From Chryseobacterium gambrini (lineage in GTDB: Bacteria; Bacteroidota; Bacteroidia; Flavobacteriales; Weeksellaceae), in NCBI RefSeq assembly GCF_900156825.1, contig NZ_FTOV01000017.1:1-64000 (forward strand): a DNA stretch of 64,000 nt, read 5' to 3'. The notes under the pieces were generated by a model. That model saw nothing but the letters and a program-made list of their open reading frames with translations, was not told the DNA's origin and did not search any database. Both the position numbers and the translations under genes were made by a program. Each line of letters begins with the position of its first letter. Position 1 is the first letter of the stretch. This document shows positions 4,458-48,290 of this stretch, one piece after another.

Positions 4458-5147
4458 TCACAGCACCAACTGTTTAATAAACTCATCACTTTCAATAATT
4501 CCGTCCCGGAGAACAACATTTCTTTTTGTCTGTGCCGCTACATCGGGTTCGTGGGTAACAACAATGATGGTTTTTCCTTCGCTGTTGATATCCTGAAGCA
4601 GCTTCATGATGTCATGCGTAGTTTTGGAATCCAGTGCTCCGGTCGGTTCATCGGCAAGAACCACTTTCGGATCGGTAATTAAAGCTCTTGCGATGGCAAC
4701 TCTCTGTTTCTGTCCTCCGGAAAGCTCGTTCGGTAAATGATTTGCCCACTGAGCAAGTCCTACTTTTTCCAGATATTCCATGGCTTTCTGATTTCGCTCT
4801 TTTCGCGGAACATTCTGATAATACAACGGAAGCGCGACATTATCCAAAGCGGTTTTGTAGCCGATAAGATTGAAAGACTGAAAAATAAATCCCAGAAACT
4901 TACTTCTGTACTCGGCAGCTTTTACTTCAGACAGATGTTCAATAGGAACTCCGTCCAGCTCATACGTTCCGGAATCTTTTTCATCGAGAATACCAATAAT
5001 ATTAAGAAGTGTGGATTTCCCTGAACCCGAACTTCCCATGATGGATACAAATTCGCCTTCGGAAATCGTAAGATTAATTCCCTTGAGAACGTGCAGCTTA
5101 CTTTTTCCGGTATCGTATGATTTATGTAAATCCTGAATTACTAACAT
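4458..5147 (-). CDS. MacB/LolD-type ABC transporter ATP-binding protein
   Basis: 229 aa soluble ATPase that powers the exporter. Walker A GSSGSGKS at residues 38-45, Q-loop FQSFNL, signature LSGGQKQRV, Walker B VVLADEPTGAL with catalytic Glu, and the switch His in VVTHEP. I prefer the ATG at 5147 (MLVIQDLHKSY); an in-frame ATG at 5174 would add nine residues not usual in the family. First gene of the four-gene exporter operon. The separate ATPase means the system resembles LolCDE/YknYZ-type transporters more than fused E. coli MacB. Confidence 0.93.
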   Translation of the reverse strand: MLVIQDLHKSYDTGKSKLHVLKGINLTISEGEFVSIMGSSGSGKSTLLNIIGILDEKDSGTYELDGVPIEHLSEVKAAEYRSKFLGFIFQSFNLIGYKTALDNVALPLYYQNVPRKERNQKAMEYLEKVGLAQWANHLPNELSGGQKQRVAIARALITDPKVVLADEPTGALDSKTTHDIMKLLQDINSEGKTIIVVTHEPDVAAQTKRNVVLRDGIIESDEFIKQLVL

Positions 5148-6826: not shown

Positions 6827-8485
6827 ATGGAAGAACAAAACAACAACATATGGTGGCTCAATGAAGAGTCTGAGCAAATGCTGAACAGAGGCTATTTGCT
6901 GAAGGGTGAAACTGTAGACGGAGCCATCGACAGGATCACCACTGCTGCTGCCAAAAGATTATATAAGCCGGAACTTCAGCCTGCTTTCAAGGAAATGATC
7001 ACGAAAGGATGGATCAGTTTCTCATCGCCGGTTTGGGCAAACATGGGAACACAGAGAGGTCTTCCTATTTCGTGTTTCAATGTTCACATTCCGGACAGCA
7101 TTGAAGGAATTACCCATAAAATGGGCGAAGTCATCATGCAGACCAAAATCGGAGGCGGAACTTCGGGATACTTTGGTGAACTTCGTAACAGAGGAACTGC
7201 GGTTACCGACAACGGAAAATCTTCGGGAGCGGTTTCTTTCATGAAACTGTTTGATACGGCAATGGACGTTGTTTCTCAGGGTGGCGTAAGAAGAGGGGCT
7301 TTTGCAGCTTACTTAGACATCGACCACGGAGATATTGAAGAATTTTTATCCATCAAAGACATCGGAAGTCCGATCCAGAATTTATTCACGGGAGTTTGTG
7401 TTCCGGATTACTGGATGCAGGATATGATCGATGGCGATATGGAAAAGCGTAAAGTCTGGGCAAGAGTATTGGAAAGCCGCCAACAAAAAGGGCTTCCTTA
7501 CATTTTCTTTACGGATAACGTTAACAGAAATAAACCACAGGTTTACAAAGACTTAGGACTTACTGTAAATGCAAGTAACCTTTGTTCTGAAATCATGCTT
7601 CCTTCAACAAGAGAAGAGTCTTTCATCTGCTGTTTATCTTCCATGAACTTAGAATTGTATGATGAATGGAAAGATACAGATGCTGTGAAATTAGCAATCT
7701 ACTTCCTGGATGCTGTTTTATCTGAATTTATCGACAAAACGGAAGGAAACTATTATCTTCAGGGAGCAAGAAACTTCGCAATGCGTCACAGAGCGCTTGG
7801 TTTAGGAGTTTTAGGATATCATTCTTACCTTCAGAAAAACATGATTCCTTTTGAAAGTTTTGAGGCTACACAATTCAATGCAAGAGCGTTCAGAAGAATC
7901 AAAGAACAGGCGGAACAGGCTTCAAGAGAGCTTGCCAATATCTATGGAGAACCGGAATTGCTGAAAGGTTACGGATTGAGAAATACGACAACCATGGCTA
8001 TTGCTCCTACAACGTCAAGTTCAGCGATTTTAGGACAGACTTCTCCGGGAATCGAACCGTTTGCTTCGAATTATTATAAAGCAGGTCTTGCGAAAGGAAA
8101 CTTCATGCGTAAGAATAAATATCTTGCAAAATTACTGGAGGAAAAAGGGCTTGATAACGAAGAAACGTGGAGAACGATCATGTTGAATCACGGTTCGGTA
8201 CAACATTTGAAGGAGTTAACGGATGAAGAGAAAGCAGTGTTTAAAACATTCAAGGAAATCTCTCCGATGGAGATTATTTCTCAGGCAGCCCAAAGACAAC
8301 AATACATTGATCAGGCGCAGTCTCTGAATCTGCAGATCCCTTCTACAATGCCGGTAAAAGATGTGAACTATCTTTATATCGAAGCATGGAAAAAAGGCGT
8401 AAAAACCCTTTATTATCAAAGAAGTTCTTCTGTTTCTAAAGAAATGATGGTAAACTTTGTTACCTGCACGGCTTGTGAAGCATAA
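6827..8485 (+). CDS. nrdA: Ribonucleotide reductase large (alpha) subunit without ATP-cone
   Basis: 552 aa catalytic subunit, about 200 aa shorter than E. coli NrdA because it starts directly at the alpha/beta barrel and lacks the N-terminal ATP-cone. Visible active-site parts: the redox Cys in LPISCFN, the Asn-Cys-Glu triad in NASNLCSEI, the second redox Cys in FICCLSSMN, radical-transfer tyrosines in TLYYQRSSS, and the C-terminal thioredoxin-reactive pair CTACEA. Short NrdA plus the nrdB residues fit class Id (NrdAi/NrdBi). Without an ATP-cone the usual dATP overall-activity switch must be absent or different (inference). The terminator directly after the gene ends the unit. Confidence 0.95.
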   Translation: MEEQNNNIWWLNEESEQMLNRGYLLKGETVDGAIDRITTAAAKRLYKPELQPAFKEMITKGWISFSSPVWANMGTQRGLPISCFNVHIPDSIEGITHKMGEVIMQTKIGGGTSGYFGELRNRGTAVTDNGKSSGAVSFMKLFDTAMDVVSQGGVRRGAFAAYLDIDHGDIEEFLSIKDIGSPIQNLFTGVCVPDYWMQDMIDGDMEKRKVWARVLESRQQKGLPYIFFTDNVNRNKPQVYKDLGLTVNASNLCSEIMLPSTREESFICCLSSMNLELYDEWKDTDAVKLAIYFLDAVLSEFIDKTEGNYYLQGARNFAMRHRALGLGVLGYHSYLQKNMIPFESFEATQFNARAFRRIKEQAEQASRELANIYGEPELLKGYGLRNTTTMAIAPTTSSSAILGQTSPGIEPFASNYYKAGLAKGNFMRKNKYLAKLLEEKGLDNEETWRTIMLNHGSVQHLKELTDEEKAVFKTFKEISPMEIISQAAQRQQYIDQAQSLNLQIPSTMPVKDVNYLYIEAWKKGVKTLYYQRSSSVSKEMMVNFVTCTACEA

Positions 8486-23577: not shown

Positions 23578-23670
23578 TTTGAAATGGGGAAGGAAGCTTG
23601 AAGAGGGAGGTTTAAATGATTGCGTTGAAGACTTCCTTCTTTCAGCCTCTAACTTCCAGCATAAAAAAAC
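23578..23670. repeat. Degenerate AAGGAAGCTTGAAGAGGGAGG-type repeat region
   Basis: Purine-rich direct repeat around 23583-23612 and a partly complementary pyrimidine-rich stretch (CTTCCTTCTTTCAGCCTCTAAC) at 23631-23653. Similar words occur at 4373-4455. No gene. Confidence 0.4.
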
Positions 23671-23995
23671 CACGAGAAAATCTATAAGCCGGATTTTGTT
23701 CTTCCGAAGAAGTGCCTGTTATTTATCTGCGTCTTACATTGCTGCAAAACTTTAGCTGATTACCCCTCGGCTTTCAGAGCGAGCAACTCCTATTTTCACT
23801 GCTGAAAAGAACCGATATACTTATCATTGCACCACAAAGAGTTTACCTGGTTTCACTACAGCCGAACTGTACATCCTTTCTGTTGCACTTGTCCTACCCT
23901 CTCGGGTGACGGATGTTATCCGCTTTGCTGCTCTACGGTGTCCGGACTTTCCTACCTCCCGTGAAACGGGAAATCAACAAGCCGATTTTCTCGTG
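23663..23995 (-). ncRNA. rnpB: RNase P RNA (bacterial type A-like)
   Basis: About 325 nt, 5' end near 23995 and 3' end near 23671, ending in a T-run (23669 to 23663). This is the catalytic RNA that trims tRNA 5' ends. Conserved pieces read on the minus strand: GGAAAGTCCGGACACC near the 5' end (CR I), AGAGGGTAGGACAAGTGC followed by AACAGAAAG (CR II/III), GTGAAACCAGGTAAACTC and, near the 3' end, CAAAATCCGGCTTATAGAT (CR V). The ends CACGAGAAAATC and GATTTTCTCGTG close helix P1, which with the T-run also works as the terminator. Promoter at 24000-24028. Confidence 0.96.
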
Positions 23996-27009: not shown

Positions 27010-27065
27010 ATACAGCGTAATCCGAAAAGCTTATAGAGTAGGAAAATCAAATAAATTAAATTACT

Positions 27066-46711: not shown

Positions 46712-46719
46712 TAGATTTG
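46712..46719 (+). promoter_or_regulatory. Possible internal -7 box for the 438-aa gene and the tRNA pair
   Basis: TAGATTTG, 15 nt before the ATG at 46735. No TTG at the right distance upstream, so weaker than 46221. Confidence 0.4.
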
Positions 46720-46734
46720 AAATAAAAAGTGACA

Positions 46735-48051
46735 ATGTATAATATCAAAGATCTTTACAAAACCTTAGAAGAACGACGACGTCCGGAAGATGTTGCGGAA
46801 ATGATTGTTGAACTTATGAAAGATCAACTTTCAACTCATGAAAATCAAATTCTGGAAAAAGCAGCAAAAGGATCTCTGAATAGAAATCTGTATGGCTATA
46901 CTTCAATGTTGGAAAGTTTTGGAACTACAGTTGGTGCAGAAGTCCAAATTAATAAAGCCATAGAAGTCTTTAAGATTGAAACTCAAGAAACTGACAAATT
47001 TGGTAGTAAGACAGAAGATATTGAAGATTTTTTAAATAAGACTTCTCCGCTCATTTTTAAATCTGTTGGTCAGAATAATTTTAAGACAGACAGACTGAAC
47101 AAGATTCAAAGAAAAGAAATAGGTCTGGATATTTCTAAACGAAATTACAATAAAAAATGGCGTCTCCTAAAAAGAATCGAAAAGAAATTAAAAACATTAA
47201 TTCAGGAAACTAAAAAGCTTGAATTTCAAAAAATTTCAAAACACGGACTAGGTCACACGATAAATTTTGAGGATTTTCAATCTGATCTAAATACTGCCTG
47301 TTTTATCGCCTATTATAATGCACGCTGCAATATGAGAAGTGTATTTACCAATCAAAGTCAGGAAAGACCATTTGATGAAATTTGCGAAGTTTTATTCGGG
47401 AGATGTAAAGAAAATCCTGAAAATACAAATTGGTGGGCAATTTCTCATATTTACACAGGCGATATAACTTTAAATTATTTAAATGACGAACAAAAGGGAA
47501 AACTTTTTGGAAAATGGACATCTATTATTCAGGAAATCTCCGGTTTTTTAGAAGTTCTATGGAATAATAACGATATCAATCGCCAGACAATGGCTGTAAA
47601 ATGCGGCAATGATTCTACAACCTGGAACAATACCGCCGGAGCATGGAATAAAGCGAGAGACAATTGGATGAATATTATTTATGCAATGGGAATGGATTTT
47701 ATCCTTGAAGACATTTGCTTTGGAAAAGTCATGAGATTAATGGCTGCAGATGTTGTTGCGTGGCATTATGCAACAGGCAGTAAGATTGATCCTAATACAG
47801 AGGTTTGGATTAAGATCCCTCTACCTTGGGAAGTTTTTCAGGAAAAAGCATTTTGCAATAAAAAATTAATTACAGATATTTGCAGAGAAGCAGGAATAGA
47901 TCCGGAAAAATCAGGATGGATCGCACCAAGAGAACATTCTGTTGCGAAATTTAAACCGACACCCGAACTTGTACACGGTGTAACGGTTTCAAATCCATTT
48001 ATGGCAACGATTCTAAGAAAGAACAAATTTTTCTCAGGAAAAAATAAATAA
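46735..48051 (+). CDS. Large protein of unknown family, directly followed by two tRNA genes
   Basis: 438 aa from the ATG at 46735 (a GTG at 46729 would add two residues). No signal peptide or membrane span. Residues about 1-165 are helical and charged; about 170-438 look like a compact, conserved-type domain rich in Trp, His, Asn and Asp: NTACFIAYYNARCNMRSVFT, ENTNWWAISHIYTGD, CGNDSTTWNNTAGAWNKARD, LMAADVVAWHYATG and TPELVHGVTVSNPF. Not RtcB, TROVE/Ro60, an aminoacyl-tRNA synthetase or a known tRNA ligase: none of their motifs are present. Its stop codon is 1 nt before tRNA 1, so protein and tRNAs must share a transcript. Most likely it acts on, or with, these tRNAs (inference). Confidence 0.8.
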   Translation: MYNIKDLYKTLEERRRPEDVAEMIVELMKDQLSTHENQILEKAAKGSLNRNLYGYTSMLESFGTTVGAEVQINKAIEVFKIETQETDKFGSKTEDIEDFLNKTSPLIFKSVGQNNFKTDRLNKIQRKEIGLDISKRNYNKKWRLLKRIEKKLKTLIQETKKLEFQKISKHGLGHTINFEDFQSDLNTACFIAYYNARCNMRSVFTNQSQERPFDEICEVLFGRCKENPENTNWWAISHIYTGDITLNYLNDEQKGKLFGKWTSIIQEISGFLEVLWNNNDINRQTMAVKCGNDSTTWNNTAGAWNKARDNWMNIIYAMGMDFILEDICFGKVMRLMAADVVAWHYATGSKIDPNTEVWIKIPLPWEVFQEKAFCNKKLITDICREAGIDPEKSGWIAPREHSVAKFKPTPELVHGVTVSNPFMATILRKNKFFSGKNK

Positions 48052-48052
48052 A

Positions 48053-48125
48053 GACAGGTTAATTCAGTGGTAGAATATCCGGCTCTTCTTCCGGATTGAC
48101 GTAGGTTCGAGCCCTACATCTGTCT
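48053..48125 (+). tRNA. tRNA 1 with 8-nt anticodon loop (CTCTTCTT), identity unclear
   Basis: Complete cloverleaf: acceptor GACAGGT/ATCTGTC (7 bp, one G-U), T8 A9, D arm ATTC-AGTGGTA-GAAT, A26, anticodon stem TCCGG/CCGGA (5 perfect bp) around the 8-nt loop 48083-48090, variable TTGAC, T arm GTAGG-TTCGAGC-CCTAC. All tertiary-contact bases (T8, A14, G18G19, T54T55C56, A58) are present. No 7-nt loop can be drawn without breaking the stem. If T33 is in place, the loop offers CTTC as a four-base anticodon (pairing GAAG) or CTT as a triplet. Discriminator T; CCA not encoded. Confidence 0.85.
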
Positions 48126-48130
48126 TGGTA

Positions 48131-48203
48131 TCTGATATAGCTCAGCGGCAGAGTACCCGGCTCTTCACCCGGGAGGACACAGGTTCGAGCCCTGTTATCA
48201 GAA
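48131..48203 (+). tRNA. tRNA 2 with 8-nt anticodon loop (CTCTTCAC), identity unclear
   Basis: Complete cloverleaf, 5 nt after tRNA 1: acceptor TCTGATA/TATCAGA (7 perfect bp), T8 A9, D arm GCTC-AGCGGCA-GAGT, A26, anticodon stem CCCGG/CCGGG (5 bp) around the 8-nt loop 48161-48168, variable AGGAC, T arm ACAGG-TTCGAGC-CCTGT. The first six loop bases CTCTTC and the T loop are identical to tRNA 1, while acceptor stems differ. Read with an inserted C it resembles a tRNA-Glu loop (TTC), but then position 33 would be C, and the T1-A72 end pair does not fit tRNA-Glu. Discriminator A; CCA not encoded. Confidence 0.85.
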
Positions 48204-48222
48204 CAAAAATTATATTCAATGA

Positions 48223-48255
48223 ATCCTTTACTTTGTTTAAAGGGTCTATTTTTTT
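48223..48255 (+). terminator. Terminator after the tRNA pair
   Basis: ATCCTTT (48223-48229) pairs with AAAGGGT (48239-48245, one G-U), followed by a T-run to 48255. It bounds the tRNA-pair unit on the right. Confidence 0.7.
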
Positions 48256-48290
48256 AAAGAACACATTTTAATCGCCTTAGTGTATTCTTA

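Follow-up and report, generated by a model that had tools for sequence, protein, structure and literature searches.

In type III toxin–antitoxin systems (ToxIN, CptIN and TenpIN), which are two-part mobile modules of protein and RNA, the RNA units often stand in tandem beside the protein gene and consist of short pseudoknot repeats. Ro60/Rsr, the TROVE protein, is a helical RNA-binding protein that is likewise encoded beside a tRNA-like small RNA (Y RNAs or YrlA). Departures from ordinary tRNA are described for allo-tRNAs and for allo-tRNA-like genes and polycistrons, the irregular forms of which gain an extra acceptor pair through a G-1 base (excerpts of a review, PMC7609411), for tRNAs carried by phages, the altered anticodon loops of which are proposed to let them escape defences directed against tRNAs (excerpts of PMC10264068), and for +1 frameshifting tRNAs such as SufB2, which typically carry an extra anticodon-loop base (excerpts of PMC7803779). 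Here we describe a locus of Chryseobacterium gambrini (contig NZ_FTOV01000017.1, positions 1 to 64,000; this 64,000-nucleotide stretch is termed the window) in which the gene of a 438-amino-acid protein is followed by two tRNA-like RNAs with 8-nucleotide (nt) anticodon loops. Homologues of the protein are accompanied by RNAs of this kind, with loops mostly of 8 nt, in all 60 non-duplicate loci, and a self-contained mobile protein–RNA module is well supported by these sequence comparisons.

The open reading frame (ORF) of the protein, taken from the ORF listing and examined through family searches, homologues and an AF2 model, occupies 46735–48051 on the forward strand, as do all parts of the locus; an alternative GTG start at 46729 would give 440 codons. 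Its TAA stop codon (48049–48051) is separated by one base from nucleotide 1 of the first tRNA. RNA 1, counted from base -1 to base 73, spans 48052–48125 and has the 8-nt anticodon loop CTCTTCTT (48083–48090); RNA 2 spans 48130–48203, with the 8-nt loop CTCTTCAC (48161–48168). Both were called by ARAGORN as tRNA-??? (48052–48126 and 48131–48204) with a four-base ‘anticodon’, cttc, and scored 53.7 and 58.4 bits, respectively, against the Rfam tRNA model, the gathering score of which is 29. The anticodon stems are of 5 base pairs (bp), TCCGG/CCGGA in RNA 1 and CCCGG/CCGGG in RNA 2, and the D and T arms of both are canonical. Among 78 ARAGORN tRNAs from the window and from stretches around the genome’s own tRNA matches, inspection by eye found a GGCTC-N5-CC arm with an 8-nt loop in just these two; two further odd calls in the same set have a 2-base and a 4-base anticodon. 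The genome (4.84 Mb, 99.99% complete, the window lying on its contig C6) has as its closest named relative in this comparison Chryseobacterium mucoviscidosis, the protein of which is 97% identical. Sequencing error or decay is unlikely, because like 8-nt tRNAs adjoin homologues in many species.

At least one tRNA with a GG-CUC-N-CC anticodon arm lies within about 420 nt of the gene in 60/60 non-duplicate loci, whereas nearly the same parser was positive in 58 of 2,192 control windows, with a loop ceiling of 14 nt for the controls and 17 nt for the loci. The 60 leave out 13 loci that repeat the window or a longer locus, L003 (almost the same as L027), L063 and L064 (the window and L050 again), L076 (overlapping L075, with the same sequence), L054 (the contig of which ends inside the gene) and the remnants L023–L025; the interrupted-frame loci L052 and L055 are retained. 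The parser demands GGCTC and CC, and ARAGORN calls are independent of it. By itself, ARAGORN placed tRNAs in 51/56 genome loci (duplicates included), 4/5 plasmid loci, and 11/12 and 3/4 viral loci in two sets; Rfam tRNA matches were obtained in the window and in 4/5 plasmid loci. Of the five ARAGORN-negative genome loci, three hold protein remnants, one lies at a contig end and the fifth is L033. The misses that were read by eye and with the hairpin parser all carry the same arm: L033 has a single recombinant tRNA, L062 an upstream tRNA with a 14-nt loop, L070 two upstream tRNAs with 9-nt loops and L080 a degenerate tRNA with a 9-nt loop.

The number of module tRNAs ranges from one to four per locus. 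The first tRNA stands downstream of the gene in 53 loci: in 14 the two overlap (in one of these, L055, through the interrupted frame), in 35 the tRNA starts within 30 nt and in 4 it is farther away. In the remaining 7 loci, the tRNAs are upstream, and the linkage therefore survives a change of order. In L047, L065, L066 and L067 the gene terminates with a TAG codon inside the tRNA, ending at tRNA base ten; excision of the tRNA from loci overlapping in this way would necessarily strip the stop codon from the message.

In the reciprocal search, 296 same-family genomes were scanned for the tail of tRNA 2 (28 bases, at most two mismatches); this query addresses tRNA 2 and its close copies, with tRNA 1 and diverged tails outside it. 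The tail occurred in 20 genomes, comprising 19 of the 22 with a full-length protein and one, G221, with a protein remnant, and in 0/271 genomes without a protein match. In G151, G242 and G192, which have the full-length protein but lack the tail, tRNA 1 is intact and any second copy is decayed. In G221, the first 38 codons are separated from the tRNA pair by other genes, and one acceptor pair of tRNA 2 is broken. The interrupting genes (L143, G221:C1:609500–618500) resemble by eye a RiPP locus, with an ATP-grasp gene and a cysteine-rich partner. An earlier note, made from the letters of this DNA, had proposed two tandem tRNAs with 8-nt loops and canonical D and T arms, which ARAGORN, Rfam and the sequence confirm; its view that selection rather than decay maintains them is supported, the same kind of 8-nt tRNA standing beside homologues in many species. 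It had also linked the tRNAs to the protein, a link that homologues lacking odd tRNAs would have shown to be accidental; such cases were sought, and all 60 loci carried the tRNAs while no protein-less genome carried the tRNA 2 tail. Transcription of gene and tRNAs as one unit, which the note assumed, is likewise suggested by their spacing.

Homologues are 28–97% identical to the window protein overall. In the 296 same-family genomes, matches were found in 25: 22 of full length, at 68–100% identity and counting the own genome, and 3 confined to a short N-terminal part. A search of genome contigs gave 32 loci, extending beyond Chryseobacterium to Sphingobacterium, Kordia, Aquimarina, Tenacibaculum, Taibaiella, Paraflavitalea and Aureisphaera, and to binned genomes labelled Fluviicola, Bacteroidetes and Chitinophagales; in a phylum-wide draw, the protein was present in 2/395 genomes, counting its own. 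Seven plasmid records contain homologues, from Hymenobacter (47% identity), Streptomyces (41–42%) and Miltoncostaea (28%), and the loci of five of these were inspected. Viral contigs of IMG/VR, the phage status of which is that database’s classification, gave 12 loci and then 16 (4 of them new) at 30–44% identity, four on contigs of 241–436 kb; a first viral-contig scan with a single protein gave no match, nor did two queries against INPHARED phages.

The loops displayed by these RNAs are unlike those of ordinary elongator tRNAs, which have 7 nt and a purine at position 37. In 108 tRNAs, counted after dropping one spurious 17-nt match in L011, the loop has 8 nt in 77, 7 nt in 17, 9 nt in 12, 6 nt in 1 and 14 nt in 1, so that 91/108 differ from 7 nt. 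The 8-nt loop of +1 frameshift suppressors is thus present in the window tRNAs and in 77 of the 108; shared with the SufB2 class, it is joined in the module by other loop lengths, an extra acceptor pair and a partner protein. Loop sequences, analysed for loops shorter than 15 nt, comprise 45 distinct forms, widely variable in their 3′ part. GG-CUC and CC are invariant in 48 aligned tRNAs, an invariance that is partly built in because the finder demanded GGCTC and CC. Loops differ within the locus in 45/46 loci with at least two tRNAs; a strict rule that they are never equal is false, since L072 has two equal loops. The loops also change places: CTCTTCTT in tRNA 1 and CTCTTCAC in tRNA 2 of the own genome are reversed in L031 and L032. 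Antisense (kissing) complementarity to ordinary anticodon loops was not supported, with 5-mers in 9/25 loops versus 6.6 shuffled (p 0.18) and no 6-mers.

The tRNA body, in turn, is closely maintained. The structure set consisted of 48 of 52 sequences drawn from the 108 tRNAs after removal of near-copies; the L033 tRNA and the first tRNA of L055 (fewer than six acceptor pairs) and the odd-sized tRNAs of L062, L075 (two) and L080 were removed, which favours high pairing in the count. Helix cells are paired in 97.7% versus 72.9% of shuffled controls, with 288 compensatory cells versus 86, the shuffles ignoring relatedness here and below. The T stem of 5 bp is paired in 99% of cells and the variable loop has 5 nt in nearly all parsed tRNAs. 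This pairing and the Rfam matches show the four-arm cloverleaf of canonical tRNA, in contrast to the pseudoknot repeats of type III systems.

The acceptor end departs from the elongator pattern of an unpaired discriminator base 73. Bases -1 and 73 are paired in 81% of the 48 sequences versus 41% shuffled, as AU in 9, GC in 9, UA in 9, CG in 6, UG in 4, GU in 2 and other combinations in 9; in distinct contexts, the pair is Watson–Crick in 37/57 versus 14.5 shuffled. The tRNAs classed as ordinary, without tRNA-His, have a Watson–Crick -1:73 pair in 19/58 (own genome) and 18/54 (viral loci), mostly T:A, the viral part retaining some GG-CUC-arm tRNAs given ordinary names by ARAGORN. Most module RNAs can therefore form an 8-bp acceptor stem with no free discriminator, as RNA 1 of the window could through A-1:U73, and a paired base 73 would be expected to bear on aminoacylation. 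All four bases occur at position 73, and acceptor stems vary widely. Covariation of the -1:73 pair across the four Watson–Crick types, together with the different loops, sets the RNAs apart from tRNA-His, with its G-1:C73 pair and GUG anticodon. Allo-tRNAs share with them the tRNA likeness and, in irregular forms, the extra acceptor pair but have an 8/4 or 9/3 branch, according to excerpts of the review (PMC7609411), whereas module RNAs combine an 8/5 acceptor branch and an abnormal anticodon loop with a short variable loop, mostly of 5 nt; irregular allo-tRNA-like genes may be relatives of the module RNAs, though the branch geometry differs.

Searches of Pfam, NCBIfam and PADLOC with the window protein yielded nothing significant; five homologues against Pfam and four proteins against PHROGs were likewise negative, the best PHROGs E value being 0.031. 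Weak matches to ATC_hydrolase (E 0.037) and Phage_TAC_3 (E 0.0028, under its cut-off) were set aside, and no weak family match was taken further because they were sub-threshold and differed between homologues. By sequence, the best matches in the Protein Data Bank (PDB) had E values of 0.085 (A1) and 0.41 (A4) and were judged to be chance. Across 35 aligned sequences, 38 columns are invariant, R, D, K and H residues among them. A first AF2 model, from 28 close sequences, had a pLDDT of 72.9; a second, from 35 diverse sequences, is essentially all-helical, with a pLDDT of 88.8 and a pTM of 0.86. Compared as whole chains with PDB folds, neither gave a significant match: the best were Foldseek E 0.64 and VIA Z 5.9 for the first model, and E 0.2 and Z 6.0, chance level for helical proteins, for the second, an outcome that does not establish a new fold. 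Rows for Nop5, Prp31 and TasH in the fold search were judged to be background. In BFVD, the first model matched an Edafosvirus protein (E 4e-10) and a Yasminevirus protein (E 2.6e-7) at 17% identity; given that it comes from the poorer model, this likeness to giant-virus proteins is taken as a lead only.

TROVE was not among the Pfam matches of the window protein and five homologues at E values up to 1, nor was there a TROVE sequence match in the PDB at E up to 10, and the RNA beside it, unlike those of Ro60/Rsr, is an entire tRNA whose anticodon loop varies. As in type III systems, RNA adjoins the protein gene (60/60) and may hold the protein; in contrast to them, the modelled protein is all-helical and no solved structure matched it significantly, and the gene order is variable. 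No Pfam or PADLOC match to a ToxN-, CptN- or TenpN-type toxin was obtained, although the lack of a fold match does not exclude such a toxin.

The facts require that the protein and the tRNA-shaped RNAs are functional partners, and they argue against decoding. The best reading, tentative though it is, has the protein, a predicted RNA-acting effector, held or guarded by its RNAs. RNase P and 3′ trimming would cut the RNAs from a common transcript. They would not serve as normal translation adaptors, because the discriminator is mostly paired and the loop mostly differs from 7 nt. The neighbouring protein may bind them mainly through the shared anticodon arm, the likeliest contact because this arm persists where the tRNA body is abnormal, as in the T loop of L075 and the acceptor of L033 (the finder having required the arm). 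As stable tRNA mimics, the RNAs would keep the effector inactive while displaying the variable loop as bait or specificity segment; an RNA-cutting activity of an invader or rival would destroy the bait and so release the protein. Such action would resemble that of a type III (RNA-antitoxin) or guard system, with no membership in a known one implied.

Several observations weigh against a protein held by its RNAs. No nuclease or other catalytic family was recognized in the protein in Pfam, NCBIfam, PADLOC or PHROGs, and no defence genes were noted beside the module. The 7-nt loops (17/108) could decode normally, with purine 37 in 6/7 distinct ones, and L068 has a 7-nt loop, CTCATAA, that may belong to an ordinary tRNA-Met. 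The own genome’s initiator tRNA-Met, in three copies, has a GG-CTC-ATAA-CC arm with an ordinary 7-nt loop; the arm by itself is therefore not unique to module tRNAs. Ordinary tRNAs also adjoin the gene in tRNA-rich viral contigs, such as L066 (with 19 ARAGORN tRNAs in 13 kb), L073 and L078. The -1:73 pair is absent in some members, such as RNA 2 of the window (A:A). Awkward for an antitoxin is L033, in which an intact 436-codon gene is accompanied by one hybrid tRNA with mismatched acceptor strands. The initiator arm is, in its own right, a possible source or mimicry target of the module tRNAs.

A wider formulation, which we regard as possible yet doubtful, is a new class of ribonucleoprotein in which the tRNA body would be no more than a scaffold, the loop a changeable specificity cassette (GG-CUC-N3-11-CC) and a protein of unrecognized fold the reader or guardian of that loop. 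It would travel on plasmids, cassette-like elements and probable large phages, and giant viruses may have it as well. The earlier suggestion of an undescribed tRNA-dependent system is supported: in the open-access literature, with most subscription papers and preprints outside its scope, no paper was found that describes this protein with such tRNAs. If correct, the tRNA fold, here with a partner protein, a non-standard and variable anticodon loop and a capped acceptor stem, would have acquired a new role beyond translation, and a further type of toxin–antitoxin, defence or counter-defence system could emerge from it. The module may also account for some of the odd ‘undetermined’ tRNAs in annotation.

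On the sequence evidence, other explanations rank below a held or guarded protein, in the order decoy, substrate, donor and frameshift suppressor. The first, an unlikely one, is that the odd-loop tRNAs, assisted by the protein, imitate essential tRNAs in their anticodon loops and absorb or resist anticodon nucleases. The frequent loops resemble Glu, Lys, Gln, Pro and Leu loops with one or two bases added after U33, and the 8-nt loops have the appearance of natural loops extended by a single base there: the 3′ tetramer equals natural positions 34–37 in 12/25 distinct 8-nt loops versus 4.5 shuffled, and the 3′ pentamer matches natural loops in 5/25 versus 1.4. The defence evasion proposed for phage tRNAs points the same way, although those tRNAs are proposed to be nuclease-insensitive and no partner protein is named in excerpts of that paper (PMC10264068), whereas the module always has one. 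Purine 37 is present in just 14/25 of the distinct 8-nt loops, which speaks against full mimicry; a decoy could act alone, yet the tRNA 2 tail was not found without the protein (271 genomes), and no clear role is left for the conserved 438-amino-acid protein.

On the second alternative, the tRNAs would be the substrates of the protein, which, as an RNA-processing or RNA-modifying enzyme, would edit the loop, for example at C34, to yield functional tRNAs. The constancy of C32-U33-C34 and of the closing GG/CC across the aligned tRNAs (due in part to the finder) would suit such a substrate, as would the many invariant polar residues of the protein; loops of 6, 7, 8, 9 and 14 nt misfit a single trimming step, and base 73 is usually paired, so that we consider this explanation, too, to have little likelihood. 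Still less probable is the use of the RNAs as amino-acid donors, charged and kept off the ribosome by their loops while the protein uses the amino acid: non-standard loops would bar decoding and the bodies are well kept, but base 73 may be any of A, C, G and T and is mostly paired with -1, the acceptor stems vary widely, and no biosynthetic gene consistently adjoins the module in the non-viral loci. To our knowledge, aminoacyl-tRNA-using transferases are not of helical fold.

Natural frameshift suppression or quadruplet decoding, for which the extra loop base speaks, is very improbable. Close relatives, the proteins of which are about 70% identical, have loops of different length and sequence, the loops of tRNA 1 and tRNA 2 change places, and the discriminator is mostly paired. 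The idea in the earlier note of a +1 suppressor with CTTC reading GAAG is not supported, given loops of 6, 7, 8, 9 and 14 nt in 45 distinct forms and a base 73 usually paired to -1. Accidental linkage, with tRNAs merely caught next to the gene, is hardly credible: tRNA genes are common landing sites and travel with mobile DNA, and ordinary tRNAs abound in some viral loci, but the 60/60 loci, the reciprocal genome test and a linkage kept where the order is swapped contradict it.

The surroundings of the module are variable. Module-adjacent gene families are shared among Chryseobacterium loci; outside that genus, in a survey of non-viral loci covering families in at least 4 loci, one family was seen in 6 loci and another in 4, at no fixed distance, and none is consistently adjacent. 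In L038, the unit lies between two 127-nt direct repeats, 97% identical and 1,718 nt apart, which resemble integron attC sites by eye. The module region of L046 (Tenacibaculum) is flanked by 156-nt direct repeats (4547–4702 and 7149–7304), 98% identical and 2,602 nt apart. On the Miltoncostaea oceani plasmid (L062), two annotated peptidyl-tRNA hydrolases and an RNA ligase family protein are encoded within 6 kb of the module.

Upstream of the window gene, a sequence and regular-expression scan revealed a putative promoter element, TAGATTTG (46712–46719), 15 nt 5′ of the start codon, which we take to correspond to the Bacteroidota -7 element, presumably of consensus TAnnTTTG. The unit appears by eye to end with a terminator-like inverted repeat and T run at about 48221–48257. 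In 9/77 scanned loci (duplicates and remnants included), namely L042, L043, L044, L046, L049, L050, L055, L056 and L057, a conserved palindrome, typically ACGCA-N7-TGCGT or TGCGC (GCGCA in L057), is situated 54–63 nt 5′ of the start codon and, in 8/9, precedes a TAnnYTTG-like element; it is possibly an operator.

Elsewhere in the window, a class A RNase P RNA gene lies at 23669–23993 on the reverse strand (192.6 bits) and an Rfam DUF805b RNA motif at 27012–27044 on the forward strand (42 bits). Contig C24 of the own genome contains two dense clusters of divergent tRNAs (123,933–127,054 and 140,575–145,001; L114 and L115), which hold odd tRNAs such as Gly(acc) and Asp(atc) and resemble the tRNA array of an integrated element.

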